64,000 nt of DNA. Origin: Hysterium pulicare CBS 123377 (taxonomy: Eukaryota; Ascomycota; Dothideomycetes; Hysteriales; Hysteriaceae). Shown here in pieces: positions 3,410 through 58,714 of the stretch; the stretch's first letter is position 1; each line of letters opens with the position of its first letter. The position numbers and the translations under genes were made by a program. The notes beneath the pieces were generated by a model that had not been told where the DNA came from, did no database searches, and worked only from the letters and a program-made list of their open reading frames with translations. Where the stretch lies: assembly GCA_000467715.1 (NCBI GenBank), contig AJFK01000752.1, positions 42,249 to 106,248 on the forward strand, in the 5' to 3' direction.

Positions 3410-3698
3410 GCCAAGGTGCCAATCTTCCACAATGGGTATCATGATTCCATAGATTCCAGCTTCGCTTTTCCTATGCCATCGGCAATAGGACTTGGTAACA
3501 TCCACTAAGGACTGGATACTCCTTTACAATCACAACACCAAGCTCAAACGTGTACGCGCCCAGCCAAGAAGGGTCGCTACGGGGTTGATGTGCAGCCCGG
3601 ATTTCAACGAATCACTACACCCCCTCCTTCCATCATCAGTTGCCCTAGAACAAAAGCCAGAACAAAGGGAGGGAAAGACAAGACCGAAAGGGATCAAA

Positions 3699-6600
3699 AT
3701 GAGACGAGCGTCCTACGCACCTTTGGATGCCCCTATCCTTCCTCCTTTACACCTTATCGACTCCTCTACTTCCATTGCAGACCAAACTCTTCGACATGCA
3801 GCTCGTCTCCTCGACCTTTCCCTCGCTTCCATCGACAAAAGCAGCAGCTTTATCAACCTTGGCGGCCATTCGATTCTAGCCGTAAAGCTATCCTCCGCCT
3901 GCAAGAAAGATGGAATCAGCCTGCCTATCGTCAATATTCTTTTGAGTAACACTCTTACCGAGCTCTGTGCTTCAGCAACTCTTTTATCCGTTAATCAACC
4001 ATGTTCACCAACTTCACCGAGGTCGCCAACACTTCGTCGCAAGTCTATTCAATATAACTGGCGCCAGTCGTTTCAGCTCCAAGGATTTCGTCGCCAGTCG
4101 GTACAAATGCAAGAGGCACGTCGCCGATCAATCCAAGACTTGATCGACAGGTCATCTCCAAATGAGATGCTTCTAACGTCCTCTCCGATGACGGAAATGC
4201 AGCTATCCTTCGTGCACAGCTATAAGCAGAGCCCGGGTACCAACATCGTGAACCTGTACGAGACATACAATACTCAGGACGTGCCCGCCGTAAAAGCTGC
4301 CTGGAAGACTGTTATCGAATCAGAGCCTATCTTCCGTGCGACCTTTGAGGCAGAAACATTATTAGTCCACGAACTGTCCTATGCGCCCTTCCGCTGGAAC
4401 GATATCATATGCAAGTCCGAGCATCAATATCAGGCCCAATTGGACAGGTACGTGGCACCAGAGAACATTGAATTTTCCTTTGAATGCGTGACGTACTCGG
4501 GAAAGAGCACCATCATCTGGCGCGTCCATCATATCTTTATCGATGGCCAGTCTGCGCAGTTGATATACGCAAAGCTCCGACGTGTCTTGATGAGCCTACC
4601 TGTTCACCCAGGTACACACTTCAGCAGTGTCGCTTCAGGCGTCCGAGAACTTCAAGAGTCGAGCCATGAGGCCAACCAAGCCTTTTGGAAACAGCAGATG
4701 GAGAAGCATCCTCAGTCAATTGGGCAACTCGCTCTTGCAGAGCCTCGCGAGTTTAGCTTCAAGAATCCCATTGAGCAGGTATCATTTACGATACCCGTCG
4801 AAAAGGTTACTATCGCAGCCCGCCGCAGAGGCGTCTCCTTGGCAGCCTGGTATCAAGCTGCGTGGGCTATGGCGCTTTCCATGTACACTGACTCGGACTC
4901 AGTGGTGTTCGGATCCGTACTTTCCGGCCGCAACCTTCCCGTCGCCGGTGCTGAGGACACGATTGGGCCGCTCATCAACACACTACCTTTCCAGATCTCA
5001 ATCGACCGGATGCAGACCGAGACAGAGTATCTGAAGTCCGTCTTCTCGCATTCTGTGATGCTCCAAAGTATACAGTACTCCTCGCCAGACGATGGCTTCA
5101 CCAGGGACTTTGCGACGGCTTTAGCTTTCGAATTCGACTTGGACGCAGCTGCCGAGGACAAATTCCGATCAATCAAGGCTCCCTGGTTCAGAGTCATTCC
5201 AGACATGCCTTTGTCTGTATTCATGAGCGAGAAAGGAGTACTGCGACTTTGCTACAAGCCGTCTAGGTACGAAAGGACCGACATGCAGTTGCTAGCCCAC
5301 CACTTCCGCAGAGCTATACTCCTCCTACAGTCTTCTAAGCGAACAATGGGAGACCGCATGTCTAAGCTTTTGACGCACGCAACCAGGAGCACCTTGATGA
5401 GCTACGGCAATTGTAATACCAACAATACATCTCTTTCTGCCGTCCATGACGATTTCGTCACGCTCTTCGAGAGAGCCACCAGACAGAATCCCGACGCCAT
5501 TGCTGTTGAGAAAGGGAAAGTGACCTTGACATATGCCGAGCTCGACCGACGGGCCAGTGTACTCGCTAAAAGTTTGCAAGTCCACGTCCAACCTGGAGAA
5601 GTCGTCTGCGTTCATGCTGATCGGTCGATCAATTGGATCGTGGCCTATTACGGTATTCTCAAAGCCGGCGCAGCCTTTTCCGCCTCAGACGCCGCGCTTC
5701 CATCTCATATTCGCAACATGAACTTCGAGACAGCTGGAGCTAAGGTCTACATAACGCCGGACCAGTCGCAGAAAGTCGCACAGCCCGATGCGTACAGCCT
5801 GTGTTTCTCGGTTGATGAACTTGTCCCTGAGGATATGAAAGTAGAGAGGTTGCCTCATCGGCAAACGCCGCGGCCTGAGGACGTCGCGTACGTCTGCTTC
5901 ACTTCGGGCACTACTGGCAAACCTAAGGGAGTCATTTGCCACCACGCAGGTTTAGTAGCATTACAGACTGATCCGGAGGTTCGCCTGCTTGCTGGTCCAG
6001 GAGAAAGAGTGGCGCAGTTCCTATCGCCGGCTTTTGATGGCAGTATCCTTGAGATATTTTCAGCTCTCTCGTATGGTGCAACCCTTGTACTCAGTGATGG
6101 AGTCGACCCATTCTCACAGTTACGGAGAGCTACCACTGCCATGCTTACGCCATCGGTCGCCCGCATATTGGAGCCAAAAGACTTCCCCAACCTAAAGGCA
6201 GTATATTTTGGTGGTGAACCTGTGCCACAGCAAGTCAATGACAAGTGGTCTGAAGAAAAGCTCACTTACAACCAGTACGGCCCAACCGAAGCCAGTTGCG
6301 CTTCCACCATCCAGCCTCTGCAGCCAGGGCGACGGGTAGCAATCGGGCCTCCAAACCCAACCACGCGAGTATATATACTGGATCGGAATCAGCAGCTTGT
6401 ACCGCCTGGCGTTGTTGGGGAGATCTACTGCGCTGGAGTTCAGGTATCTCGAGGCTATATTGGTCAGCCTGAGTTGACCGCACACCGGTTTTTGCCCGAC
6501 TCCATCTGCAGGCGACCTGGCGAGATGATGTATCGCACCGGCGACCGCGCCTTTTTTAACCATATGGGAGAAGTTGAATGTCTTGGTAGAAATGATCGCC

Positions 6601-8538
6601 AGATCAAACTGCGCGGATTTCGCACGGATTTGAACGACATCGAAGCGCGGGCCGCGGGCGCGATCATGGAAGCCAGCGCAGTCGTTATTTGCCCCAAAGA
6701 TGATTATCTTGTATGCATGATGCAACCGGAGACGCTTGATATTGCTAATGTGCGTTCAAGACTTACCAATGTTCTTCCAGTACACGCAGGTAAGCCAACC
6801 CACAAGTATCAATGAATTGTGAACTGATACTAAACAAAATACAGTTCCGCGAGTTATACTAGCCGCATCGAAATTCCCCATCACTTCGTCTGGAAAGCTT
6901 AATTATAAGGAGATTGCTCGTCTATGTAGCGCTTCTTCACAGTCGATTGCGCAGACGTTCAAGCCAATGTCAGCTACAGAGATGGCCGTAGCCCAGGTCT
7001 GGAGGCGTCTTCTAGCTCTCGGTGCTTCGCAGGAGGTGACGGGTGCGTCGAACTTCGCTGAGCTTGGAGGACACTCTGTTCTTCAGCTTCGTCTTGCCAG
7101 CGAGCTGTCAAACATTTTCAAGGCTCGTATTCCCATGTCGCAGGTCATCAAGGTAGCAAACCTTTCCGAGATGGCTTCGGTCATTGACGAGATTCGATCT
7201 CAGGCGAGTGGCGCATCGGCTATGCCGCTTAAAACACTAGGGACGAACAATGTGTCTCCGATCGAGGCAGAATGGTTCGAGAAGTACCAAATCAAGGAGG
7301 GTGTCACGTCCTTCAACGTGACTTTCGCCTGCACCATTGCACCTCAAATCGACATCGACCATCTTACTGCTTGCTGGAATGCCATGTTAGCCCGTCATCA
7401 GATCTTCCGCAGCAGATACCACAGAGATGAGAGCCGGCCCGAGCGAGTGAAAAGGACATATTCTAAGATCAACTCCCAAGTCACCAGAGTGGATAACTTT
7501 GACCTTTGGGAAGAATGCAATCAACCATTCGACGTTGAACACGAGAACCCCGTTGCTGTCATAATCTCCAAGTCGACGATGCTAGTGAGGATGAGCCATA
7601 TCATTGCTGACTTGACAGCATTACAGGCGATGTTGAAAGAGCTCGTGCAAATGTACCACGGAAGTGGACTCGGTTCAGTAAAGAGGAGGTACGCTGATAC
7701 TGTGAACTGGAGCGCCCCAGCCACTGCTGCTCAGAAGCAGTGGTGGGCAGAATACCTGCGGGCAAGTAGAGACAGTGAGAACGTAATCTCCAAATTATCA
7801 AAACGGACGACGTACAAAGGAGAGTCTCGTGTCATAAAATTCCCGCTGGCATTGGCCCAAAAAGTGCTTAAGTATTCCGCTGAAAACTCGGTGACTTTGC
7901 ATCAAATGGGACTTGCCGCAGTTGCCCTCGCGCTTCAGGCCGACAACGATAGGACCGACATCGTTCTGGGTGGCCCATGGTTCAACCGGCAGGCAGAAGA
8001 CGTCGAGACAGTCGGGCTGTTCCTCGAGGCCATTCCGATCCGCATTCGACACGATCATAACCAGGAAGACTCATTTATGAAAAGTGTCCAAGGCTCCAGT
8101 CAGTCTGCACTCTCGAACGGAATCTCGTGGGGCCAGGTTCTCCAAGCCATGGGCTACACGGGTGACACAAGGCCAGATTACCCGCACAATCCTGTGTTAG
8201 ACACGGTAGTGACCTTCCATGATGACCGAAAGACTTTGAAGGTGCCAATCGATGGCCTTGAGCCACTCTACACGTTCGGGCACGGTGCCAAGTTTGCGTT
8301 GATGGTTGAGTTCACCGCCCTCAGCGAGGAATCCGTGATCGTGCGGCTCGAGTACGACGACGCGATCATTTCAAAGGCCACAATTACCTGGATCGAAGAT
8401 TTGATCCTGGAAGGCCTGGACTTGATCTCTACCAGTACAGAGTATGGGGCGATTAAAGAAAAACTGAGGAGTATGAAGTGCGGAGAGATGGAGAGGAACA
8501 TAGAGAATGTCTTTGGAAGGGCCTTGGCGACTTTGTAA
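3699..8538 (+). CDS. non-ribosomal peptide synthetase, T-C-A-T-C
   Basis: Exons 3699-6789 and 6845-8538 (55-bp intron) give about 1594 residues. Domain order is visible from core motifs. T1 has LGGHS with Ser58 as phosphopantetheine site. C1 has HHIFIDG at 277-283, a complete HHxxxDG. The A domain has FTSGTTGKPKG from 734, YNQYGPTE near 858, YRTGDRAF near 945, KLRGFRTD near 970 and the catalytic-lysine motif SSGKLNYKE. T2 has LGGHS with Ser1108. The terminal C has SHIIAD around 1281, the SHxxxD form usual in fungal terminal condensation domains that release products by cyclisation. The A domain has Asp in FDGS, the position that binds an amino-acid amine. The start has A at -3; another in-frame ATG lies at 3588. 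Only one A domain serves two T domains and the protein begins with T, so the first unit must be loaded in trans or an upstream A domain was lost. Product unknown. Confidence 0.9.
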
Positions 8539-21830: not shown

Positions 21831-23347
21831 GGCAGATTCGATGACCGCTATGAAGCTGGTATGTAGGAGGAAGGTTCAATTGAAGTGCGCCGAGCGCAAA
21901 TGTACGAGAGCCGAAGCATATTTAAGTTGGCCGTATCGCGGTATCGGATGGTTGACGTTCAGACGGATGCATGTTCCCGATTCCGATAAGAGCGGCGATG
22001 GAGTATTCACGTCTTGGCGCCGAGGAATCGGAATATCATGACCCCGAGAACTTCAGCTTGAAGTTTGAACAATCTCCCCTTTGACTGCACTTCGAAACTA
22101 CCCTGACCTCTCTTTGCGACTGATTGAAGTCATTGTCGCTCGTTCTTCGTCATTCCTCACTCACATGAACAGCAAAATTCTCACTGATTCCGACGAGACA
22201 ATGATCATTGGTGCACAGAGTAGCACGCTCGTCGCACATGGAACCACCAAGCCTAGAATCCCAACAGCCTGATCTGCTCATGCAAAGCATTAACATCGGA
22301 ATAGACACTATGCTGGAACTTTCTACTGCAAATGGGAACCCGACTCTGATGGCTACCAGCTACCCGCCCTGAGCTGGGGAATATTAGAGAGCTGAAACAA
22401 TCTCACGAGACCATTGGGTTTTCAGGCCGCCTTGTGAACGCCCATGTCTGCCGCCATCATCTCTACGCTCAGATGTTAAGATCGTGGCGGTGGGCTTACC
22501 GTTTTGCTTTGCTAGCTGAAAGATGGGTCGCATCCACAGCCACCAGCCTGGTCGGCCCGCTCCCTCCTTAGGTGCAGGCGTCTTACTTGCAGACAAGGCA
22601 TCCACAAGTGCGCCTTTCAGTACACGATGCAGACATCTGCAGTTCACTTCGAAAACATTCAGCTGAATACCACAATGCAGATAGTATGACCACCTTGGCC
22701 TTCCGGTTCTGTACTCGTGTGCAACACCGGTAAGAACCACGTAGAGCACAGCTGTCTATCAATAGGTCATTTATTTCCTTTCTCTTTGATCCTGACCAGT
22801 CTAAACGGCACGTCTGTCGGCAACTGATTTCGCAGTCTGGCCTGCACCCACTCGTCAGCCGGCCTTCCAGCATCTCGTTCCCCACCCGTCTTTATATCTA
22901 AAAGAAAGTTTTGCAATACGATGCAGCACAAGACCCAGGCGTCATAGCTTCTTCCTGTGGGTGTAACCCAAATAACCTCTATTCGCTCAGTGTACCGAAA
23001 TCCAGCCAGTCAGCGGGATGGTTGCATGGGATCTTCGTAAAGATAGACGCAAGTTGTGTATCATCCCCCGTTGTCCACAATTTTCAAGTGCTGGGGATAC
23101 GGTCTTAACTTGTGACGTTGGATTCTTCGCGTGTGCATTCCTTTTCCAAACCGTTCAGCTCAGTGTATAAGGTATTTAAGGGTACTCCATATCCTTCTGT
23201 CTGCATCCCTCATTCACCTTCTTGGTCCCAGCCTTGGAAAGCATTGCTCTCATCTCGACAACCTTGTGCCGGGCTAACCTTATTCTTTGTTCAACACGAG
23301 ATCGCCTCACACGTTACGCTCTTCATACGTCTTCTTGCAACGACAAA
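21831..23347. other. divergent intergenic region
   Basis: This 1.5-kb region separates the cysteine hydrolase (-) and the PsiD-like decarboxylase (+). Frames of 60-140 codons occur but carry no motif or splice logic. No repeats or RNA genes were recognised. Confidence 0.45.
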
Positions 23348-24859
23348 ATGTCCCTACTTCACGTCGGGAAACCGCAAAGTCCCTATGTCAAGCACCGCCT
23401 TGGAGGCTGGATGCCCAGCGACCCTACGCATTTCCAGAAGTGGCTTGAGGACACTGTCGATCATGTCCGCAAACATCACCAGAAGGACAGGGCCGATATT
23501 GATCCTTCTATTCAAGCATTCTGGAAGCTGATTGAAAGCAATACCGAAGTCCGCATGTACTTCAGCCTCATGTTTGATCAAGTTCCAATGAAGGACCCAT
23601 ACAACCAAGATCCTACCGGAAAGCCGACTATTCGAAGCTGGCAGGAGATGTTGCTCACATTCGACCTACTACTAAAGAAGGGTCCCATCTGGCTGTACAA
23701 CACCGAAGGTCAGAAAGGGCTTGTGGGTTTCCCATTTAATGCTGTTTTGGTGAGTGGTCTAATGAAGGATATTCCCAGACAAGCGGACCTTAATACAACT
23801 TGTAGGACTGGCCCATGGCTACCCCTGCCGGTGTCTTTGCTTTCCTTCGGAAGGACGTCAATGAATGCTTTCGAGGAATGCTTGCCGCGTACAATGCTTT
23901 CCTCTTCAGTCCAAACTCAACCACGGTATTGGACAAGGATCCAGAGGGTTGGTTCTCACCTCAAGCTCTCGAGACTATGGGTGAGGTTGCCTCTGAAGGC
24001 TACGGTCCAATCTCTTTCGACAAAGCCTATATATGTACCCCATCTGCAGCCCATTATGGATACAATTCCTGGGATGAGTTCTTCGTCCGCCAGTTCCGGG
24101 AAGGCGTCCGGCCTGTGTATGAGCCGAACAACACCAAAGCGATCACAAATTGCTGCGAGTCGACCCCCTACGCGTACGAGGAGAACGTGAAACTTTTCGA
24201 TACCTTCTGGATAAAGGGCCAGCCTTACAGTCTGGCAGATATGTTGGGTAATGAGGCTGATGCAAATCCATTCGTGGGAGGCACGGTCTATCAGGCATTC
24301 CTCTCGGCTCTTAGCTATCACCGTTGGCATACCCCCGTCAGTGGCACCGTTATCAAGCTCGACTATATTCCTGGCTCTTACTATGCAGAGAACTATTGGG
24401 AGGGCTTTGCAAACATCGATAACCAAGGCAACCCAAACCCCGACCCCGCCGCACCAAACAATTCCCAAGGCTACATTTCTCAGGTAGCTACCAGAGCTGT
24501 GATGTACCTACGCGCGGATGATCCAAGCATTGGCGTCATGGCCATCGTTCAGGTCGGCATGGCCGAGGTTTCGACGTGCCAGTGGACTGTTAAGCCCGGG
24601 CAATATCTCACGAAGGGCCAAGAAATTGGAATGGTGAGTAATACACAATGTCGCAATTAAAGAAGCGTAGACCAGTTACTGACGTTGTTTGCAGTTCCAT
24701 TTTGGAGGCTCGACCCACTGCCTCGTCTTTCGGCCAGGTGTCAAGCTTGATCTCAAGGTTAAGCCTCCTTATACTGGTAGCGAGAAGAATCTCCCCGTCC
24801 GCGGATATTTGGCAACCATTTTGAATGGGCCTCTATATGACGATGATGAAGCTTCATGA
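23348..24859 (+). CDS. PsiD/phosphatidylserine-decarboxylase-like enzyme
   Basis: Three exons (23348-23749, 23806-24633, 24695-24859; introns 56 and 61 bp) give 464 residues. The N-terminal half contains MYFSLMFDQVPMKDPYNQDP and a WQEMLLTFDLLLKKGPIW segment. This is typical of the extra N-terminal domain found in fungal decarboxylases related to PsiD (tryptophan decarboxylase), not in membrane phosphatidylserine decarboxylases. The C-terminal domain has YNSWDEFFVRQF, TPVSGTVIKLDYIPGSYY and the self-cleavage motif FHFGGSTHCLVF. There Ser416 of GGST should become the pyruvoyl cofactor. The enzyme would decarboxylate an amino acid or a phospholipid head group. No mitochondrial leader or membrane anchor is visible, favouring a soluble amino-acid decarboxylase. 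Substrate is unknown. Confidence 0.87.
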
Positions 24860-26126: not shown

Positions 26127-26351
26127 ATGGGCTGCTTCGGCTCCAAACAATCAAGATACCCTCAAGGCACAAGCAGTGGTGCTTATGCTGGCGGCGGATA
26201 TGCCGGCGGCGCATATATCCCAAGTGGTGGTGACGGCGGCGGCGGCGGCGGAATTTTTGGGGGAGACGGGGGCGGAGCAGGAGATGGCGGCGGCGGAGGA
26301 GGAGGAGGAGGAGGCGGAGATGGAGGAGGAGGTGGTGGCGGTGGAGCTTAA
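26127..26351 (+). CDS. small glycine-rich protein with MGC acylation motif
   Basis: A single exon encodes 74 residues. The N-terminus is MGCFGSKQSRYPQGTSS. Gly2 followed by Cys3, with Ser6 and Lys7 at the accepted positions, matches a dual N-myristoylation/S-palmitoylation signal used to anchor proteins to membranes. The rest is almost wholly Gly with Ala, Tyr and Asp, ending in long Gly runs. It is encoded by GGN repeats that are open in other frames too. No domain is present. Proteins with this layout are often annotated as glycine-rich or hypothetical. The acylation signal is seen in sequence; membrane location is inferred. Because of the repeat, length may vary between strains. Confidence 0.6.
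   Translation: MGCFGSKQSRYPQGTSSGAYAGGGYAGGAYIPSGGDGGGGGGIFGGDGGGAGDGGGGGGGGGGGDGGGGGGGGA
26229..26349 (+). repeat. GGN-rich simple sequence
   Basis: About 120 bp of GGC/GGA/GGT/GAT triplets inside the glycine-rich gene form an imperfect trinucleotide microsatellite. It encodes the poly-Gly/Asp tail and is a likely site of length variation. Confidence 0.8.
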
Positions 26352-26920: not shown

Positions 26921-27673
26921 ATGGCCGAAACGCAACCCGCCCCAGCCTACAGCGTCCTCCGTATTCCCACTAATACTGCTCGTCTCAACGAGCTCGTCAA
27001 CAAATTTCGCGACTCGAAGCTGGCTGCTCTTCAAGCCGAGCCAGGCGGCTTCGCTGTAAAATACGAAGACGAAATCCTATACCCCTCCTCTGTCTGGCTT
27101 CGGCGCCTTACCGGATCGCTCACAGAGATCCTCGTTTGTGTAGCTACAACTGAGCAGGCGAACACTTTGGATAAGGATGAGGATACCCTTTTGAATGGCG
27201 ATTGGGTGGGATTCGCAACTCTGAACGGTCCAATTCCCTACTCCGCATACCAACTTCCAGAGTCAGGGCAACCGGTACCGAAGCATCCAGAATTGGAGAC
27301 ACGATGGCACATGTGCAGCCTGTATACCTCACAGGCACATCGGGGTCGCGGGCTCGCCAAGCGCCTGATAAATGCAAGCATAGCGTCTGCACAGGAACGT
27401 ACGCGTACGCTTGAGAGCGGGGCGGACATGAAGGCTAGGATCCGACTTTTCTGCAATCCAGGGAAAGCTCTTGTGGTAGGACTATACAAAGGCATGGGTT
27501 TTTCGGAAGCAGGCCTGTGCACGCAGAAGGAGGCATTCATAGCAAATGGCGACGAGAGCTTGGTCCCTAATGATATTGAGGATACTGAAAAGTCCAGGCA
27601 TACCTGGCTCAGACGGTGGGGTCTTGCTATGGAACGAGTTGTAGATGCCTCAAAAGAAACGATCATTGTCTGA
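26921..27673 (+). CDS. GNAT-family N-acetyltransferase
   Basis: A single exon encodes 250 residues. The GNAT core is visible as ILVCVATTEQAN...WVGFATLNGP (strand 4 region), then MCSLYTSQAHRGRGLAKRLI. There the acetyl-CoA pyrophosphate-binding loop RGRGLA is a complete Q/RxxGxG/A motif. RIRLFCNPGKALVVGLYKGMGF matches the conserved C-terminal strand and Y-x2-GF helix. The N-terminal RIPTNTARLNELVNKFRDSKLAALQ is typical of fungal members. The enzyme would transfer acetyl from acetyl-CoA to an amine; the acceptor cannot be told. It has no targeting signal and appears to be transcribed alone. Confidence 0.85.
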   Translation: MAETQPAPAYSVLRIPTNTARLNELVNKFRDSKLAALQAEPGGFAVKYEDEILYPSSVWLRRLTGSLTEILVCVATTEQANTLDKDEDTLLNGDWVGFATLNGPIPYSAYQLPESGQPVPKHPELETRWHMCSLYTSQAHRGRGLAKRLINASIASAQERTRTLESGADMKARIRLFCNPGKALVVGLYKGMGFSEAGLCTQKEAFIANGDESLVPNDIEDTEKSRHTWLRRWGLAMERVVDASKETIIV

Positions 27674-28127
27674 AAAATGCAGCAGACTACCGTAACCCAG
27701 CCTTTGGCTCTGCTGGCCGAGCGTGAAAGCTGCGGTCTGCTACTTTATCTTCCAAAGGAAGCTGACGGGTATGCAGGTGAGCAAACATTTTTATGCCAGA
27801 AACGTGAGAAGGTACCTAGGTAGGCAGCAACTGCGCCACAATTCACCCCGCGCACCACCTCCGCACCGCGCATTCGCGCGATTCTCATTTTCCAGTCTAC
27901 CCTTCTCTCATGCCTCTTCTTTTCCGTCATAGCAATTCACTTTTCTTCCTCGTATCAAGTGGTACACTCTTGTTTCGGGCTTACTCTGATTCGAACTCGT
28001 TGTCCTGTTATTCCATTGACTTCCTCCTACCCTCGTCTCCGGAACTGTTTCTAATACATCTGGAGCTTTTGTTCGAGCATCTTTTCGATCATAAATATCA
28101 GATCAGCAAGCCTTGATCGCATCGACA
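27674..28127. other. promoter and 5' leader of the RRM-homeodomain gene
   Basis: This is a pyrimidine-rich, gene-free stretch. Around 27840-27900 it contains GCGCACCACC/CGCGCATTCGCGCG, a short GC-rich alternating tract. No other feature is supported. Confidence 0.45.
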
Positions 28128-31100
28128 ATGAGTAACGCGCACGACTTTGCGTTTGACTCTCAGCATGTTCCTGCACAGATCCCCAGGGCTCCACCTGTCG
28201 TTCCCAGATTCTCTAGCAACGACTTGACCTCTACTACCAGTTCTATACGACTAGATGAGACCGATCCGATGAACGATAGTGCACGTAAGACTGCCGAGTG
28301 GCCCCGTCCACAGAGTGACAAGCGCAAGAATTTCCTAAACTTCAGCGCTGCTGGCGGTAACACTGCTCTTCCCATCTCTGTGGGTTCAACTGCTCAGAAT
28401 CTCCCCTGTGACACTTTGTACGTCTGCAACTTGTCGCCTGATCTCTCCGAAGATGATATGAAGGATATATTCTCAAAACAACAGGGCTACAAGCGTTTGT
28501 GTTTTCGGACCAAGCAGGGCAAAGCAATGTGTCTCGTCAAGTTTGAAGATGTGGCATGCGCAGTCATGGCATTGCATAACCTAAAAGACCAACCATTACA
28601 GGAAAGTGTAAAGGGTGGGTTTGACCTAGGATTTGCAAAAGACCCATTAGGTGTTCGCTTTGCAAAAGAGCCATCAGTTGTTCGAAGCATGCATTCCAAG
28701 CCAACCGTCCTAAATCTATTGTCTTCCGAAGCAGAAAGCCCAAGCAGCATGGGTCTTTTGTCTTCACAATCCTCAAAGAAGCATCTAGGGGATCGTAAGG
28801 CGTACCCAATGTTCCACTATTATGTATCTTCTCCGAGCTGACATATACCTAGTCTCAAATATCCTTCTGGGCAACACGGCCAGTCTACAACCTACCAGAT
28901 TAAAAAGTAATTTTCCCCACTGTAACGTCGTGCTCTTTAGTCAACATGCCACTTCGGTCGCGCTGATCAAAGTTCATCCGACTAATTGTGTTATCAACTT
29001 AGGAGTGACGGAGAATGTTGCGGATAGTGACGAAGTCGTACCGCTTCCTTCCAATCCCTTCGTTCCTTCGTATATCGATCCTACAAGAGTATTCTCAGTT
29101 AGACTTACCCAGGAGCATCATAATACTCTCGAGGCTCATTTTCGGCGGGAGCCTAAGCCGAGCAGGACCACTAAGGAAGCACTGGGCGCAAGACTTGGAG
29201 TTCCAATCGATAAGATTAATGTAAGTGCAAGGAACAGACGTATACGTAACTCTTCTACTGACTTGAGGTCTCAGAACTGGTTTCAGAATCAAAGAGCAAA
29301 GACGAAACTAGATATCAGGAAGCAATCGAGTCCATTCGACCACAGCGAACCAGAAAGAAAACTGCAAGAACGTTTATCGCTTCGGGAGATCGAAGCATCT
29401 TCGCCACAGACAAATTCATTCTTCTACATATGTACCCTTGCGCCGTATGGGTGCACCGCATCATTCACAACAAAGTCAGAATGGATACGTCATACGTACG
29501 AAGTCCATTTTCCTTGCCAGTCATGGAGTTGCCATGTCTGTACGGGAAGGGCTGAAAAAGCCGCAGCGCCCAATGGTGGGTTGCAGGCTCGAGCATTGTA
29601 CACCTACAGTTCCGGGGATCCGAACAACTTGAACTTTCGACAAGGTGATATCATTGAACTCCTCGAGCAACACGAGAGCGGTTGGTGGGATGGTACTCTG
29701 AAAGGAGTTCGAGGATGGTTTCCAAGTACTTACTGTGCTATCATGCCTCGCACATCAAACGACGGAAACCAAAGCCGGCTTCCAGGTTCAGCCAAGGTCT
29801 CCAAAGGTGTTGAGAATGAGGATACCATCTTGGACACGAATACTGCTGACTTCGCATATTCTACGCTCTCCCGCAAGACCCATGGCATCGAGCATCGAGA
29901 AGTGAAGGCCGTAAACACATCGGCAGAGTCGGGATGTTCTTCCATGCGTCAAGATCTTCCTGTAATAAGTATTTGTGTCTTCTGTAGTCAATCCTTCTCT
30001 GGTCCGGATAGCTGGAATAAGCGCATGCAGCACATCGGTGGGCATTTTGAACTGGCCGAGAAATCCAAAGGTAGTTTTGTGGTTGGACCCTGGAGGACTG
30101 ATGTTTTCGTTGAAGCATATCTGCTGCATAAAGACATGATCCATCGGAATGGCCATGGCATTTGGGAGTTGAGGGATCGGAAAGAAATGAAGTCCGTGGA
30201 CGGTGAAGACTGGAATACCTCAAGCGGCTCCGACGAGTTCAGTCAGGATTCATGTGATGAAGAGGGTGACTCAACATCGACAAGTTCCGATTGCTTATCG
30301 ATCCCGTTCATCTCCGTTAAAACGAAAATGCTCGATACGCTGATGCGAGAGGTTCACACGTTGTCGAGTCTTCCGCCGGACTCTCGTACTTGCGCTTCCG
30401 GTCAGACGTCCCAACGTAGCCAGACCAAGTGTGTTACAGCCGGAACGGGCAAATCTCAACCAAGCAGCAAAGCACTGGGCAAGCGAGCTATGCGGGAAGA
30501 TGATAGTCGATATCCTGACGAAGACGATGAAGATTCCAACAAACGTCGAAAACGCGGGAATGGAGCGAATGATCCCGAGGACAACAAACCGCCAGTTCGC
30601 TATGCTTGTCCTTACTTCAAACATAATCCGCGTGGGCACAAAGGCCGGGCTTGTCGTTATCCTGGCTTCACAACTGTCCACCGCATGAAGTAAGTCGAAG
30701 AAAACGATGGCTGTTCATCCACGCTAACCGATCTTCAGGGAACATCTATACCGAACTCACATTTCTATCCATTGCAATAGATGCCATCGCATTTTCGACT
30801 CCGAAGATGGTTTGAGGGACCACCAAAGAGAAATCCAACCATGCTTGATCAATAATCAACTACCACCGGAAGGAATCGATGCTACCCAGCTAGCTCGCTT
30901 GAAAAGCAAGAAGAAGTTTGGCTGTGAGACCACAGAAGAGGAGAAATGGAGGGCGATTTACCATTTCTTATTTCCAACTGAAAATGCATCCTTTGTTTCA
31001 CCATGTAAGCACCCTTGTTCTTGCTTCTTTTGCTGGCAGTATGGTCTAATCTCTAGCATCAGACTGCGATGACCTCGTTGAACCCATTGACGAAAACGAT

Positions 31101-31721
31101 CTGAACGAATTCGAGTTATTCTCTAGACGGGAATTTCCTCGCAGAATACGACAGGAGCTTAACACCTTGTGGGATACGCTAGCACAGCCGATAGAAGACC
31201 AACTCAGAGCCGAGCTCATCGGTATCGTAGAGAGGTGCCGCGATGGCCTCTTCCATGACTACCATCGCCAAAGAGGTGACTCCTCCTTATCATCCAACGA
31301 ACTCGATGTTCCTCTACCCTATGATCTCCAGAATGCGGCCTCGGTGGGCAAGTCCAGTAGCGGAGGTGGGGTATCGGCGGCGGAATCCCAACCAACCTTT
31401 AATGAGCCCGACGTCACGGACGTCCTGGACTTTGATCTCAGCGCACATGATTGGCTGCTAGTCGATGAATTCGAGAAGGATGGTTTATCAGACGATACGA
31501 GTGACTTCGAACATATCCGCTCAACAGCAACGCCACCACCGGACTTGAAGGACAAAGTCGACGTATCGAACGACGATATGTCGCCCAGATCTGAGCGCAA
31601 AGATTTCTCGAATAAATATCCTTACGATAAGGAATACCTGATTGATCCGACGATTGATCCGAGGTCCGATCCGGATAACGTTTTAGAGAATTTCGACTTT
31701 GACAAATTCCTTGCGATTTAA
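28128..31721 (+). CDS. chimeric RRM-homeodomain-SH3-C2H2 regulator
   Basis: Proposed exons are 28128-28794, 28853-28906, 29003-29220, 29275-30689, 30739-31004 and 31063-31721, about 1092 residues. Residues 93-175 are an RRM close to the C-terminal RRM of Whi3/Scw1 (TLYVCNLSPDLSEDD, YKRLCFRTKQGKAMCLVKFE). A 58-bp intron (GTAAGG, branch CTGAC, CTAG) joins it in frame to the next part. Residues 270-327 are a homeodomain whose recognition helix IDKINNWFQNQRAK is complete only after removing a stop-free 54-bp intron. A C2H2-like element lies near 366-403. Residues 416-470 are an SH3 domain (ARALYTYSSGDP, SGWWDG, RGWFPSTY). Further zinc elements follow: CVFCSQSF...HIGGHF, then YACPYFKHNP...VHRMKEHLYRTH with CNRCHRIF. 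The acidic C-terminus could be an activation region. The 28907-29002 intron is optional (96 bp, in frame). The RRM could instead be a separate 237-residue gene ending at 28841. Confidence 0.7.
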
Positions 31722-32610
31722 GCGTGCATAATGCGCAAATACCTAGCTAAACACATGTTCTGCGACGCCGTTCTAGACAATACGGTCTACGAATTTTCCC
31801 AATGCTTGGGGCTTTGTCCTGACTTTTATCTTATCTTGGAAGGCGTCCTCATTGTATAAAGCCGCTCATTAGTACATTCCTGCAGTGCAATGTATACTCC
31901 TATGAGGCCATATTCGGTGTTTCGCTTTGGAAAGGTTGTTTTATGTCGATACAAAACGCTGGACTCGCGTTTCAAACATGCGCTCTTCTTATGATACTAT
32001 GATGACCATTGTCATGAAGCTCATGCATCAATCGAAATATTGACGGGGTTTTCTTATGTATATTGCGACGCATAACCAAACTTCCTTTCACGTGCGTCAT
32101 TAGTTTCACGATAAATAAAAAGCCTCTCAAGTTGAGAACTTGTAAATCACAAACCTCACAATATTATTACGCTAGACATTGGCTCTTCCTTCAACACCTC
32201 ATATCATACTCGAAGCGATGTTGAGAGAAGATTGCAAGCGATGGAAGCGTTGATGCCGATCCGTTCTGGGTGCACCGGCAAAAGAAAAGAAGGCTGACCC
32301 ACCAACCCCATCGTACCCCTGCCGTGCCTAATTACCGATCCCGGCACACCCAGATTCCCCCTTGAAGCCGCCCTTGTCCATATCGAGCGACCGTTAAGGC
32401 TGTCATAGCGCCCGTTCATCTCCACGAGCTGAACCCCCATCGACGATTCGTTGCGATGCGATACGATGCGATGCCCTGCTCTTGGCTTTTAATCATCATA
32501 CCACAACAACAGCAGAAGAGGTTGGTTGGGTATTACAATAACTTTGGATTCATGGATAAATATATACGACCGTGACAATCACCACTACGTCGATTATTAA
32601 TGGATTACGA
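31722..32610. other. convergent 3' region
   Basis: This gap lies between the homeodomain gene (+) and a secreted-protein gene (-). A short repeat TGCGATGCGATACGATGCGATGCC lies near 32450-32474, built from GCGAT units. No gene is supported. Confidence 0.5.
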
Positions 32611-45808: not shown

Positions 45809-46053
45809 GCAATGCTAGAGCCAATAAAACTGCACAGACAATGGCTAGGGAGACAAAGTTCACTATGATTAGAAATTGATTTGGTTATCGGAATTGAAAG
45901 CAGGAAGGACAACTTTAGAACCGGTTCCATTATGCATAGCATCCTACTAGACAGCATAGCTACCTCTGAAGCGAGTATACTTCACTTCTCCGATGTCCCA
46001 AAACAACGCCAAACCGAAGAATGACCAAGATGTAGCGTGAGCGAAGAATTAAA

Positions 46054-47012
46054 TCAAGTAGACTTCTTGGCAAATTCCACTCGGAGAATCAAGTGACCGA
46101 AACCATCTGAAGAGAGTGTTAGCAACAGGTCCTAGTCTAGACAAGCCTTTAAACTTACAGCCATCCATCTTTTCGCAAGCCTTTGCCGCGTCTGACCGGT
46201 CCGCATAGCTGACGAACGCAAACCCCTTCGCCCTGCCAGTTTCCCTGTCTTTCGCCAAAAACACCCTCGTAACATGTCCAAATCGCGAAAACATGTCTCG
46301 GAGGTCTTGTTCCTCGGCGAACTCGCTCACGTTGGTGACGCGCAAAGTGGCAAGGTCGTCCCTCTCATATTTTCCACCCATTTTCTCCCCAGCGCCCGCG
46401 CGTCCACGGAGATGAGGCGGCACGTAACTCGATCCGCCTCCTCCAAGTGCTCCGGCCGCATCCGGAGCCTCATCCGCCAAATCCACAGATGTACCTTCAC
46501 CCTCTGGCGCCATGGTGTCTTTGAAGGGACACTTGATGCTCCAGTGATCTCCGCTGCAAATTCTGCACTTGATCTTCGCATCCTTGAGATTCTCCTTCTT
46601 CTTCTCCGTCTCGCTCTTGTCATCGGTACTCGCCTTCCAGTTCGCCATCGGCCTGAAGACGATGTTTTCCGCAATGCTGGTTGTGTCTGTTTGAGGTCCC
46701 TCGGGCTTGCCCTTTTCGTTGCCGAACTTGGCCCAGTGCTTGCGCTCGGCGACGCGGGGATTCACGACTTGCTTGACGACCGTTTTGCGGATTTTCCGGG
46801 TCGTCTTGATTTTCTTGCCATCTTCGCGGATCGACCAAGTCACAAAGGTCTCGGTTCCGTCTTTGTTCTTTATGATTTGTTGTTGAGGGAGCTGGACAGA
46901 ATCTTCGTCTTCTTCTTCGGCCCAGTCGGTGCGGCTTTGAGTGTGGTCAGATCTGAACTGGATAGCTGGCTAGGAGGGGAGCAGTGTCTACATACCCTGC
47001 TACTCGAGACAT
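46054..47012 (-). CDS. TIF35: translation initiation factor eIF3 subunit G
   Basis: Three exons (47012-46996, 46934-46159, 46106-46054; introns 61 and 52 bp) give 281 residues, the usual size for fungal eIF3g. The tiny first exon encodes MSRVAG and joins [16 protein letters not shown]. Family signatures are [20 protein letters not shown], a CCHC zinc knuckle ([15 protein letters not shown]), [11 protein letters not shown] and a C-terminal RRM ([39 protein letters not shown]). The last exon restores [18 protein letters not shown], the RRM's final strand. The protein is part of the eIF3 complex that recruits mRNA to the 40S ribosome, in the cytosol. It is divergent from the NmrA-like gene. Confidence 0.96.
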
Positions 47013-57108: not shown

Positions 57109-58714
57109 TCAGTCCCAAGTTCGCGGAGTAGTGTACATAGCATTATCCCACAATTTACTTTCGATTCCTTTCTCACCGGTTCTACCCTCATCCTTGGAGT
57201 TCCCTCGGTTCAAGTTCTTCGTAGCATTAGCCCTCTCTTTTCGCAGCTTCGCCCAAGTGGCAAGAAGGGCCGAAGGCCTCAGACTTGGTGGATCTGTTCC
57301 ACCAAGAATCGGCATCTGCTCAAGAGTAAGGACGCCGGCATGATACATGGCTTGGACAGTCGGATGGACCACCGCGTTATGCGGGATGTCACGCATGGCT
57401 CCGTTGTTGGGTGGTAGATAACGAGGGACCCATTTGCCGGACTCGAGCTCCAACCGGGAGAAGAATGGGAGAATTTCTAAGAATTATCAGCAGAGAATCT
57501 GGGGATATAGAACGGCGCTGAGCGCGTCGGACTTACCAAGCATCCACCAACAACATGTTCCGAACCACGATATACCGCCTCCGAAGGACAACATGTCGTG
57601 GGGCTGGTTGGTGCGAACGCGGATCTCGTGGTTTGAGAGACGCTTGCGGTGGATTAGACCGAACAACCACGTTTCATATTCGACCGGCTTGAATGTGTCC
57701 TCAATTACAGGACTGTGATCGAATGCTAGCTTCTGATTTTCCGGCAATTCGTCCAGCTCCTTGAGCATCCACTCAAGAGGCGTGTCGGAGAGGAGATGCC
57801 GTTGGTTCTTTTGCAAGCCCCATCCACCACCCACATCTCCATGGTTCCCTGCAAACCATACCTCCTTGATATCGCAGTTGAACTCCTTTGCCGTCTCCTC
57901 ATCCATATCGAACAGCGCCGGCTTAAACTTCAATCTCCGTTCATGTATCGAGATCGCATGCCGAACGTATCTCGCAGGAGGCTGCACCATAACCTCATAA
58001 TGCTTTGCCCCAAACGGAATCTCAAACTGCGTCACACTATTCACACAGTCGAACAAACCCAAGAAATAAACCACAACGCTCGGCCGACAAAACGTCGCCT
58101 TGAACTTCCGCATATACTGTAGCCGAGCTACGTCTTCCTTTGTCTGCGGCATATTGCTCTTGCTTCGTTGATAATCGCTAAACGTGTCCCAGGCAAAACG
58201 GACCATTTCCTCATTGCCGCGGGATAAGAGTCCAATAGAAAATAGCATCTCGGAAAGAAAACGAGCGGTATAGGCTCCGCGTGAAAAGCCGAAGATATAA
58301 ATTTGATCTCCCTCGGCATAATAGCGCATTATGAAGCGGTAGCCTGCGAGGACGTGGTGAACGAAGGAGGTTCCCACGCCTTGGTCGATTGTTGTGAGAA
58401 CTTTGGATTTGAGGCGGGTCCAGAAGTTGCCGGTTGAGGAGTTGGATTGTTGTGAAGTGTACGTGCCGATACCCGCTGTATACGTAAGTGATGAGTTTCT
58501 TCGTACATGAGAAGGGTGATGTAGATGGTAGAACGAGCTTACGTTGGTAATAATGGAATTGATCAGGTGCATCGCGGTCGAGTAGTTGATAGATCTTGAC
58601 TATGTTGGTGTCGGCTTCATTGCCTAGGAATTTGTTGCCTGTTCCATCGAAGCAGAGAACGAGGCGCTTAGAAGTCCTCTTCTCTTGGAAACCTGAGGTG
58701 CCGTTTTCATTCAT
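57109..58714 (-). CDS. DUF2235 alpha/beta hydrolase
   Basis: Three exons (58714-58543, 58475-57537, 57476-57109; introns 67 and 60 bp) give 492 residues. The N-terminus has RLVLCFDGTGNKF, the invariant opening of DUF2235. The nucleophile elbow IFGFSRGAYTARFL has Ser122 in GFSRG, and VWFAGNHGDVGGGW carries the conserved Asp region. Other conserved strings are TIDQGVGTSFVHHVLAGYRF and FLGLFDCVNSV. The family covers fungal hydrolases of unknown substrate, and bacterial members include type VI secretion phospholipase effectors. The third exon adds a basic C-terminal part (WAKLRKERANATKNLNRGNS). No signal peptide or membrane anchor is visible. Lipase or esterase activity is inferred from the fold only. 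Confidence 0.88.

Follow-up and report, generated by a model that had tools for sequence, protein, structure and literature searches.

The DNA stretch analyzed here (the window) comprises 64,000 nucleotides of Hysterium pulicare CBS 123377 (contig AJFK01000752.1, positions 42,249 to 106,248 of the forward strand). At 28128–31721 on its plus strand it contains a gene that combines an RRM, a homeodomain, an SH3 domain and C2H2-type zinc fingers. Splicing and translation of the sequence give a single open frame of 1124 amino acids (aa) plus stop, running from the ATG at 28128 to the stop codon at 31719–31721 through five exons and four canonical introns. Exon 1 (28128–28794) encodes aa 1–222 and the first base of codon 223, and intron 1 (28795–28852, 58 bp, GTAAGG...CTGAC...CTAG) connects the RRM frame with the homeodomain frame. 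Exon 2 (28853–29220) is followed by intron 2 (29221–29274, 54 bp), exon 3 (29275–30689) by intron 3 (30690–30738) and exon 4 (30739–31004) by intron 4 (31005–31062), for which a second possible acceptor at 31056 is likewise in frame; exon 5 (31063–31721) includes the stop. Intron 1 had been proposed with these signals in an earlier, sequence-only reading; it is present where it was placed, and splicing it together with the three further introns yields the complete frame.

Three domains of the spliced protein were recognized by Pfam above the cut-offs: RRM_1 (aa 97–155, E 1e-6), Homeodomain (PF00046, aa 306–356, E 1.2e-11, 44.7 bits compared to a cut-off of 22.9) and SH3_1 (aa 451–496, E 2.7e-13). 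The genome that was searched for related sequences comprises 37.2 Mb in 596 contigs, with the locus contig labelled C498 and the other contigs C-numbered in the same way. The genome-wide domain matches listed comprise at least 89 RRM, at least 25 SH3 and at least 11 homeodomain matches, the split homeodomain of C266 not being among the 11. Among these matches, two of the three families are found together on C250, C106, C572, C426 and C498. Only on C498, at the studied gene, are two families less than 5 kb apart (489–1174 bases), compared to 27–84 kb on the others.

The RRM is part of a patch at 28380–28679 (+, aa 85–184) that matches a Whi3/Scw1-type gene of the same genome (C540:51544–51843) with E 1.3e-30 and about 56–57% amino acid identity over residues 86–185. 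In an 11-row tree the RRM groups with the C540 gene with a support of 97/91. The likeness to the C-terminal RRM of Whi3/Scw1, suggested before from the sequence alone, is borne out by both results. Compared to Whi3/Scw1, approximately 100 residues around the RRM are alike (57% identical), but the studied gene holds this fragment without the remaining Whi3 body; likeness to C540 is reported for aa 85–185 only, and the remainder of the 595 aa C540 frame gave no reported match. The RNP2 tyrosine is retained, whereas one RNP1 phenylalanine is replaced by leucine (KAMCLVKF compared to GPMCFVEF in C540). A tandem duplication with a period of 27 closes the RRM (28632–28657 and 28659–28684, +, two 26-nt copies, 88% identity), encoding FAKDPLGVR and FAKEPSVVR. 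Yeast Whi3 binds GCAU motifs in mRNA, according to PMC3875557.

The SH3 domain (29590–29727 by Pfam) lies in a second patch at 29566–29787 (+, aa 443–516), which matches a Cdc25/Ste6-type gene on C228 with E 5e-26 and 56% identity (58% over 74 aa in the local alignment). The next-best SH3 gene of the genome is far weaker with E 6.4e-8. At the DNA level the piece is 71% identical to C228 over 29561–29750. Similar to Cdc25/Ste6-type Ras exchange factors, the residues of the binding pocket are retained (ALY.Y, WW, FPS.Y). In contrast, the WW, RasGEF_N and RasGEF domains, which Pfam detects in C228 beside its SH3, are absent from the studied protein, and the RT loop is changed from YDYDADDRTS to YTYSSGDPNN with the loss of most acidic residues. 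The SH3 of yeast Cdc25 is cited as a binder of adenylyl cyclase in PMC7343979 and PMC7227425. In the studied gene, the domain takes the place of the loop in the second finger of the zinc-finger gene C510; when this finger is read as split, its C-x2-C stands ahead of the SH3 and its H-x3-H (HGIEH at aa 548) follows later. It may have split or replaced this finger loop, and insertion and replacement are both possible with the weak C510 alignment nearby.

A third patch, at 28280–28375 (+, aa 52–81), is derived in all likelihood from a polyketide synthase (PKS) gene. It is 81% identical in DNA to C525:35147–35245 over 99 columns (E 1.7e-18) and 71% identical in protein over 31 columns, in the same strand and frame as in C525, where the segment sits behind the ketosynthase domain inside an open frame of 1522 aa. 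Searching PDB sequences with aa 42–86 revealed five distinct sequences at E ≤10, namely three constructs of the non-reducing PKS CTB1 (E 1.4e-4), norsolorinic acid synthase (0.027) and an unrelated designed protein (0.094). Similarity to non-reducing PKS (C525; CTB1, PDB 6fik) concerns a stretch of 30 residues behind the ketosynthase, which is not a folded domain. Ketosynthase and acyltransferase domains, both present in C525, are absent from the studied protein according to Pfam, leaving a linker scrap without any catalytic domain. A DNA search with 27700–32300 gave three matches: one to the locus, one to the PKS gene and one to the Cdc25-type gene. Judged by sequence, PKS is a third foreign donor beyond the Whi3/Scw1 and Cdc25 types. 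The sequence-only reading had seen neither this patch nor the tandem duplication nor the sources of RRM and SH3 that are still found elsewhere in the genome. An NCBP3-like gene (C343, NCBP3 by Pfam) was also considered as a donor, for 28861–28920 (+, aa 226–245), with 12 of 19 residues alike by eye. Its E of 0.03 was obtained only within a longer query and the piece alone gave no match at E 10, leaving a weak lead that is suggestive only.

The recipient of these patches is itself composite. Its homeodomain stretch (29101–29340, +, aa 306–367, spanning intron 2) is nearest to the homeobox gene C266, with E 2.0e-6 in the genome search and 2e-13 locally. A homeodomain is the only Pfam domain at E 0.01 in the 843 aa frame of C266, and both genes carry a 54 bp intron at the same codon (after ..DKIN), which for C266 was deduced from 18 consecutive in-frame codons. 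The homeobox-finger gene C426 gave a weaker homeodomain match (E 7.7e-4); C8 and C557 were found genome-wide via their fingers only, and their local homeodomain alignments reach E 0.003 and 0.002, respectively. As an observation apart, the homeobox gene on C8 (L033 106-2243) has fingers resembling C2H2 and, slightly below the cut-off, a Zn2Cys6-like stretch. A C2H2-type finger with a following C-x2-C (29392–29541, +, aa 385–434) and a second stretch with the finger CVFC...HIGGH (29926–30273, +, aa 563–678) are nearest to C510, which has no recognized homeodomain in its frame of 572 aa and whose fingers are also below the Pfam cut-off.

The tail (30523–31238, +, aa 762–964) belongs to a C2H2 family with relatives on C577, C596, C18, C421, C4 and C92 in addition to weaker ones. 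When the stretch from behind the SH3 to the tail was used as query, six matches beyond the locus were obtained at E ≤1: the C2H2 relatives on C510, C4, C596, C92 and C421, and C343:122512 (E 0.13). Among five tail relatives, intron 3 has the same place in C4, C92 and C18, a less canonical donor in C596 and no counterpart in C577; among three, the intron 4 donor is placed identically in C577 and C4, with the less canonical GTAATG in C596. Since intron 2 has the position of C266 and introns 3 and 4 are shared with the tail family, the parts were joined at the DNA level with their introns kept, and not from cDNA. The expectation that this remainder is a usual homeobox-C2H2 regulator could not be upheld, as its homeodomain, middle fingers and tail are nearest to three different kinds of genes, the first with no recognized C2H2 finger and the second with no recognized homeodomain. 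Known fungal regulators such as TmHox2 and TmHox7 of Talaromyces marneffei (PMC11508405) and the MoHOX family (PMC2779367) likewise unite a homeodomain with C2H2-type fingers, whereas the terms SH3 and RRM have zero occurrences in both papers. On C92 (L063 464-1929), a Zn2Cys6 match lies just upstream of the tail; the tail family may combine with different DNA-binding domains.

One spliced, selected protein is likely the better reading of the sequence, because the frame is intact, the share of differing nonsynonymous sites (pN) is well below that of synonymous sites (pS), and the available ATG codons are unsuitably placed for a second gene. For RRM, homeodomain and SH3, pN amounts to 0.27, 0.25 and 0.25 at pS of 0.66–0.96, counts that include the donors' own branches. 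Around 4% of possible single changes produce stops, and approximately 15 stops would be expected in 1124 codons at 0.11 neutral changes per site, compared to zero present. Changes in the SH3 piece with its flanks seem to favour positions that are variable among nine other SH3 stretches (p 0.009). The main rival assumes two adjacent genes with overlapping frames. The first would encode an RRM protein and end at 28841, the second would start at ATG 28822 and encode a homeodomain-SH3-C2H2 protein, and 28795–28852 would remain unspliced. Either frame is indeed open alone, the second has an ATG, and intron-like strings of such strictness arise by chance approximately 0.4 times per kb (0.44 per kb on one strand of the window and 0.34 on the other, 0.25–0.56 in shuffles). 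However, a scan to 30000 gave homeodomain-frame ATGs at 28822, within intron 1, and at 29743 and 29944, both behind the Pfam SH3 match. The only start ahead of the homeodomain in its frame is therefore 28822, inside the coding end of the first gene, with no space for a promoter. Intron 1 is also the sole candidate within 28691–28900, with canonical donor, branch and acceptor linking both frames in phase; with the frame allowed for, the chance of such an accidental join is estimated at roughly a few per cent. We consider two genes improbable, and the captures of PKS, RRM and SH3 would remain even then. Still far less credible is a non-functional relic or an assembly artefact, for which the missing constraint of the PKS patch might be put forward. 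A relic is contradicted by the intact frame and by pN well below pS in three domains, and pieces that differ by 19–42% in DNA from the matching genes are not misjoined reads.

To compare the ages of the pieces, synonymous divergence was determined as the share of synonymous sites that differ (Nei-Gojobori count) between each piece and the nearest gene of the own genome. This pS amounts to 0.958 for the RRM (62.6/65.3), 0.77 for the homeodomain compared to C266 (29.2/38.0) and 0.663 for the SH3 (33.5/50.5), whereas the PKS patch reaches only 0.19 (4/21). Fisher tests on rounded counts separate the PKS patch from the SH3 (p 2.1e-4), the homeodomain (2.9e-5) and the RRM (2.3e-12). As a control, this stretch was compared between the PKS genes C525 and C366; their pS amounts to 0.874 (18.5/21.2), and the stretch is consequently not inherently slow. 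By this measure, the split between the PKS patch and C525 is much younger than the splits between the other pieces and their nearest genes. Since its value is far below the 0.66–0.96 of RRM, SH3 and homeodomain, the pieces probably arrived at different times.

From these results it appears probable, with some reservation, that a single nuclear regulator gene was built as a patchwork from pieces of several unrelated genes, with templated insertion as the likeliest route. The anatomy described in the sequence-only reading is confirmed and its interpretation supported in part, but the patchwork goes further than described there. A starting gene would have been formed when a homeodomain, a zinc-finger stretch of the C510 type and a tail of the C2H2 family were fused as DNA, with the introns retained. 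This fusion would then have gained approximately 300 bp of Whi3/Scw1 with the RRM, approximately 220 bp of Cdc25 with the SH3 and, later, 96 bp of PKS. Since the matching genes still exist, the pieces would have been copied and not moved, and they are read in the strand and frame of their donors. The patches measure 96, ~300 and ~222 bp, and their sources, for which Pfam gave the gene identities, are retained on C525, C540 and C228, i.e. at ectopic positions. All three donor matches lie inside open frames, which for C540 and PKS have the lengths given above and for C228 comprise 252 aa. On the host side, PKS and RRM are both located in exon 1, with 115 bp between the RRM patch and the exon end, and the SH3 is enclosed by exon 3. 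Given the open donor frames, and with an intron near the RRM patch alone in the host, classical exon shuffling does not explain PKS, RRM and SH3. The Cdc25 piece, however, starts close to the beginning of its donor frame, and an intron of the donor a short way upstream is possible. The former proposal that exons from two other genes were captured has to be abandoned in view of these positions and of PKS as the third donor. Repeated templated insertion at DNA breaks would be the likeliest route. Such events in yeast and humans measure ~50–300 bp and can be complex, as reported in PMC11724301. Short pieces, distant genomic donors and the possibility of several pieces are common to these events and the studied gene. 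In contrast to the fresh laboratory events described there, several pieces are fixed in frame here and apparently differ in age.

Several observations weigh against this patchwork reading. The patch junctions are too diverged to show the microhomology of break repair, and relatives were not found outside the own genome: six pattern-matching stretches in viral and 41 in prokaryote contig collections (neither of them fungal) contained no relative by tblastn. If the donors of RRM or SH3 were paralogs that are now lost, the divergence gives only an upper bound on the age of capture. For the PKS patch, pN (0.159) and pS (0.19) have a ratio near 1 and give no sign of constraint at the protein level. 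In the SH3 domain alone, 30 kept and 16 changed positions have mean entropies of 1.58 and 2.14, and the preference for variable positions falls to p 0.06. The proposed relation of the SH3 to Ras exchange factors, which agrees with the strong own-genome match to C228, is weakly supported in the 11-row SH3 tree, where the fork that holds the Cdc25-type gene also includes a third SH3 (56/93). Likewise, the domain order RRM, homeodomain, SH3 and C2H2 put forward earlier was recovered by the domain search of the spliced protein for the first three members, but the C2H2 models are below their cut-offs (zf-C2H2_4 15 bits compared to 27, zf-C2H2 11 compared to 25.2); the putative zinc fingers are assigned by Cys/His spacing and homology to paralogs alone.

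A different view of the timing and manner of arrival, which overlaps with the patchwork reading, is old domain shuffling. RRM, homeodomain, SH3 and C2H2 would then be the conserved order of a family of the fungal lineage, with the PKS patch as the only recent addition and nothing special about the locus. Synonymous sites are saturated for RRM and homeodomain and nearly so for SH3 in comparison to the present genes, and a frame that looks selected may well have relatives of the same order. On the other hand, no second full copy was found in the own genome, and searches on the arrangement gave no such family in the literature as far as it was accessible. We regard this explanation as a serious possibility, yet not as the favoured one. 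Slightly less weight is given to a further-reaching proposal, which we put forward tentatively, of a recurrent acceptor locus. Its N-terminus and inter-finger loops would have been patched repeatedly, at no fewer than two clearly different times, by short templated insertions of host coding DNA, with selection retaining those in frame; break repair would thus be a route of domain capture, yielding a regulator in which modules of the Ras/cAMP and Whi3 networks serve as decoys or docking sites. Capture by a transposon is very unlikely. Multi-donor mosaics are typical of Helitron and Pack-MULE elements in plants, and a mobile element of this kind could have gathered gene pieces and become the gene. 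A search for transposon ends in 27400–32600 gave none that are convincing, with four inverted-repeat pairs of 14–32 nt and 72–86% complementarity, and the DNA search with 27700–32300 showed no second copy. Pleurotus Helitrons, moreover, are reported in PMC4289320 as not prone to capturing fragments of host genes.

The window contains further genes. Two long frames at 3489–8538 (+) have condensation, AMP-binding and PP-binding domains and represent one or more non-ribosomal peptide synthetase genes. Phosphatidylserine decarboxylase-type domains occur at 23806–24660 within 23180–24660 (+), where an overlapping upstream frame is presumably joined by an intron, and a frame at 26128–26351 (+) combines the short start MGCFGSKQS with a long glycine-rich tract at its end. 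On the minus strand, 46049–46969 holds a further RRM gene, eIF3g by Pfam and unrelated to the studied gene, and 57487–58599 a Tle1-like phospholipase catalytic domain (PF09994, E 3.2e-75), whose model is named for a bacterial type VI effector and is found here in a fungal-type genome.

With regard to function, the homeodomain and fingers of the patchwork protein would bind DNA, and the basic stretch KRRKR (aa 768–772) would direct the protein to the nucleus. The roles of pocket and RT loop in SH3 domains and of the RNP residues in RRMs are known from these folds in general. The SH3 would bind a proline-rich partner with a specificity changed by the loss of acidic residues in the RT loop, and the RRM would add a contact to RNA, perhaps weakened by the replacement of the RNP1 aromatic residue by leucine. 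Because of these two changes and the tandem duplication that closes the RRM, the partners are expected to be altered ones and not those inherited. The protein might be a regulator that touches Ras/cAMP partners and RNA, along the lines of the possible link between Ras signalling, RNA and transcription suggested in the sequence-only reading.

Chimeric genes are known; a regulator patched together from several donors, apparently at several times, whose likely donors are still present beside it would be a new form of them. No protein that combines RRM, homeodomain, SH3 and C2H2 was found in the literature searched, which was mostly without subscription journals and accessible in part, and this is no proof of absence. 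Among the matches listed for chimeric genes, insertion mechanisms and donor biology, the accessible texts likewise did not name such a protein. How new domain combinations originate without exon shuffling is an open question, for which this gene is a good case. Likely donors and recipient are present in one genome, the pieces have the sizes known from laboratory yeast, their ages apparently differ and the frame has survived; the step from an accident of break repair to a working protein can thus be dated and tested. If SH3 and RRM work, one regulator would join DNA binding, RNA binding and a docking module of the Ras pathway.

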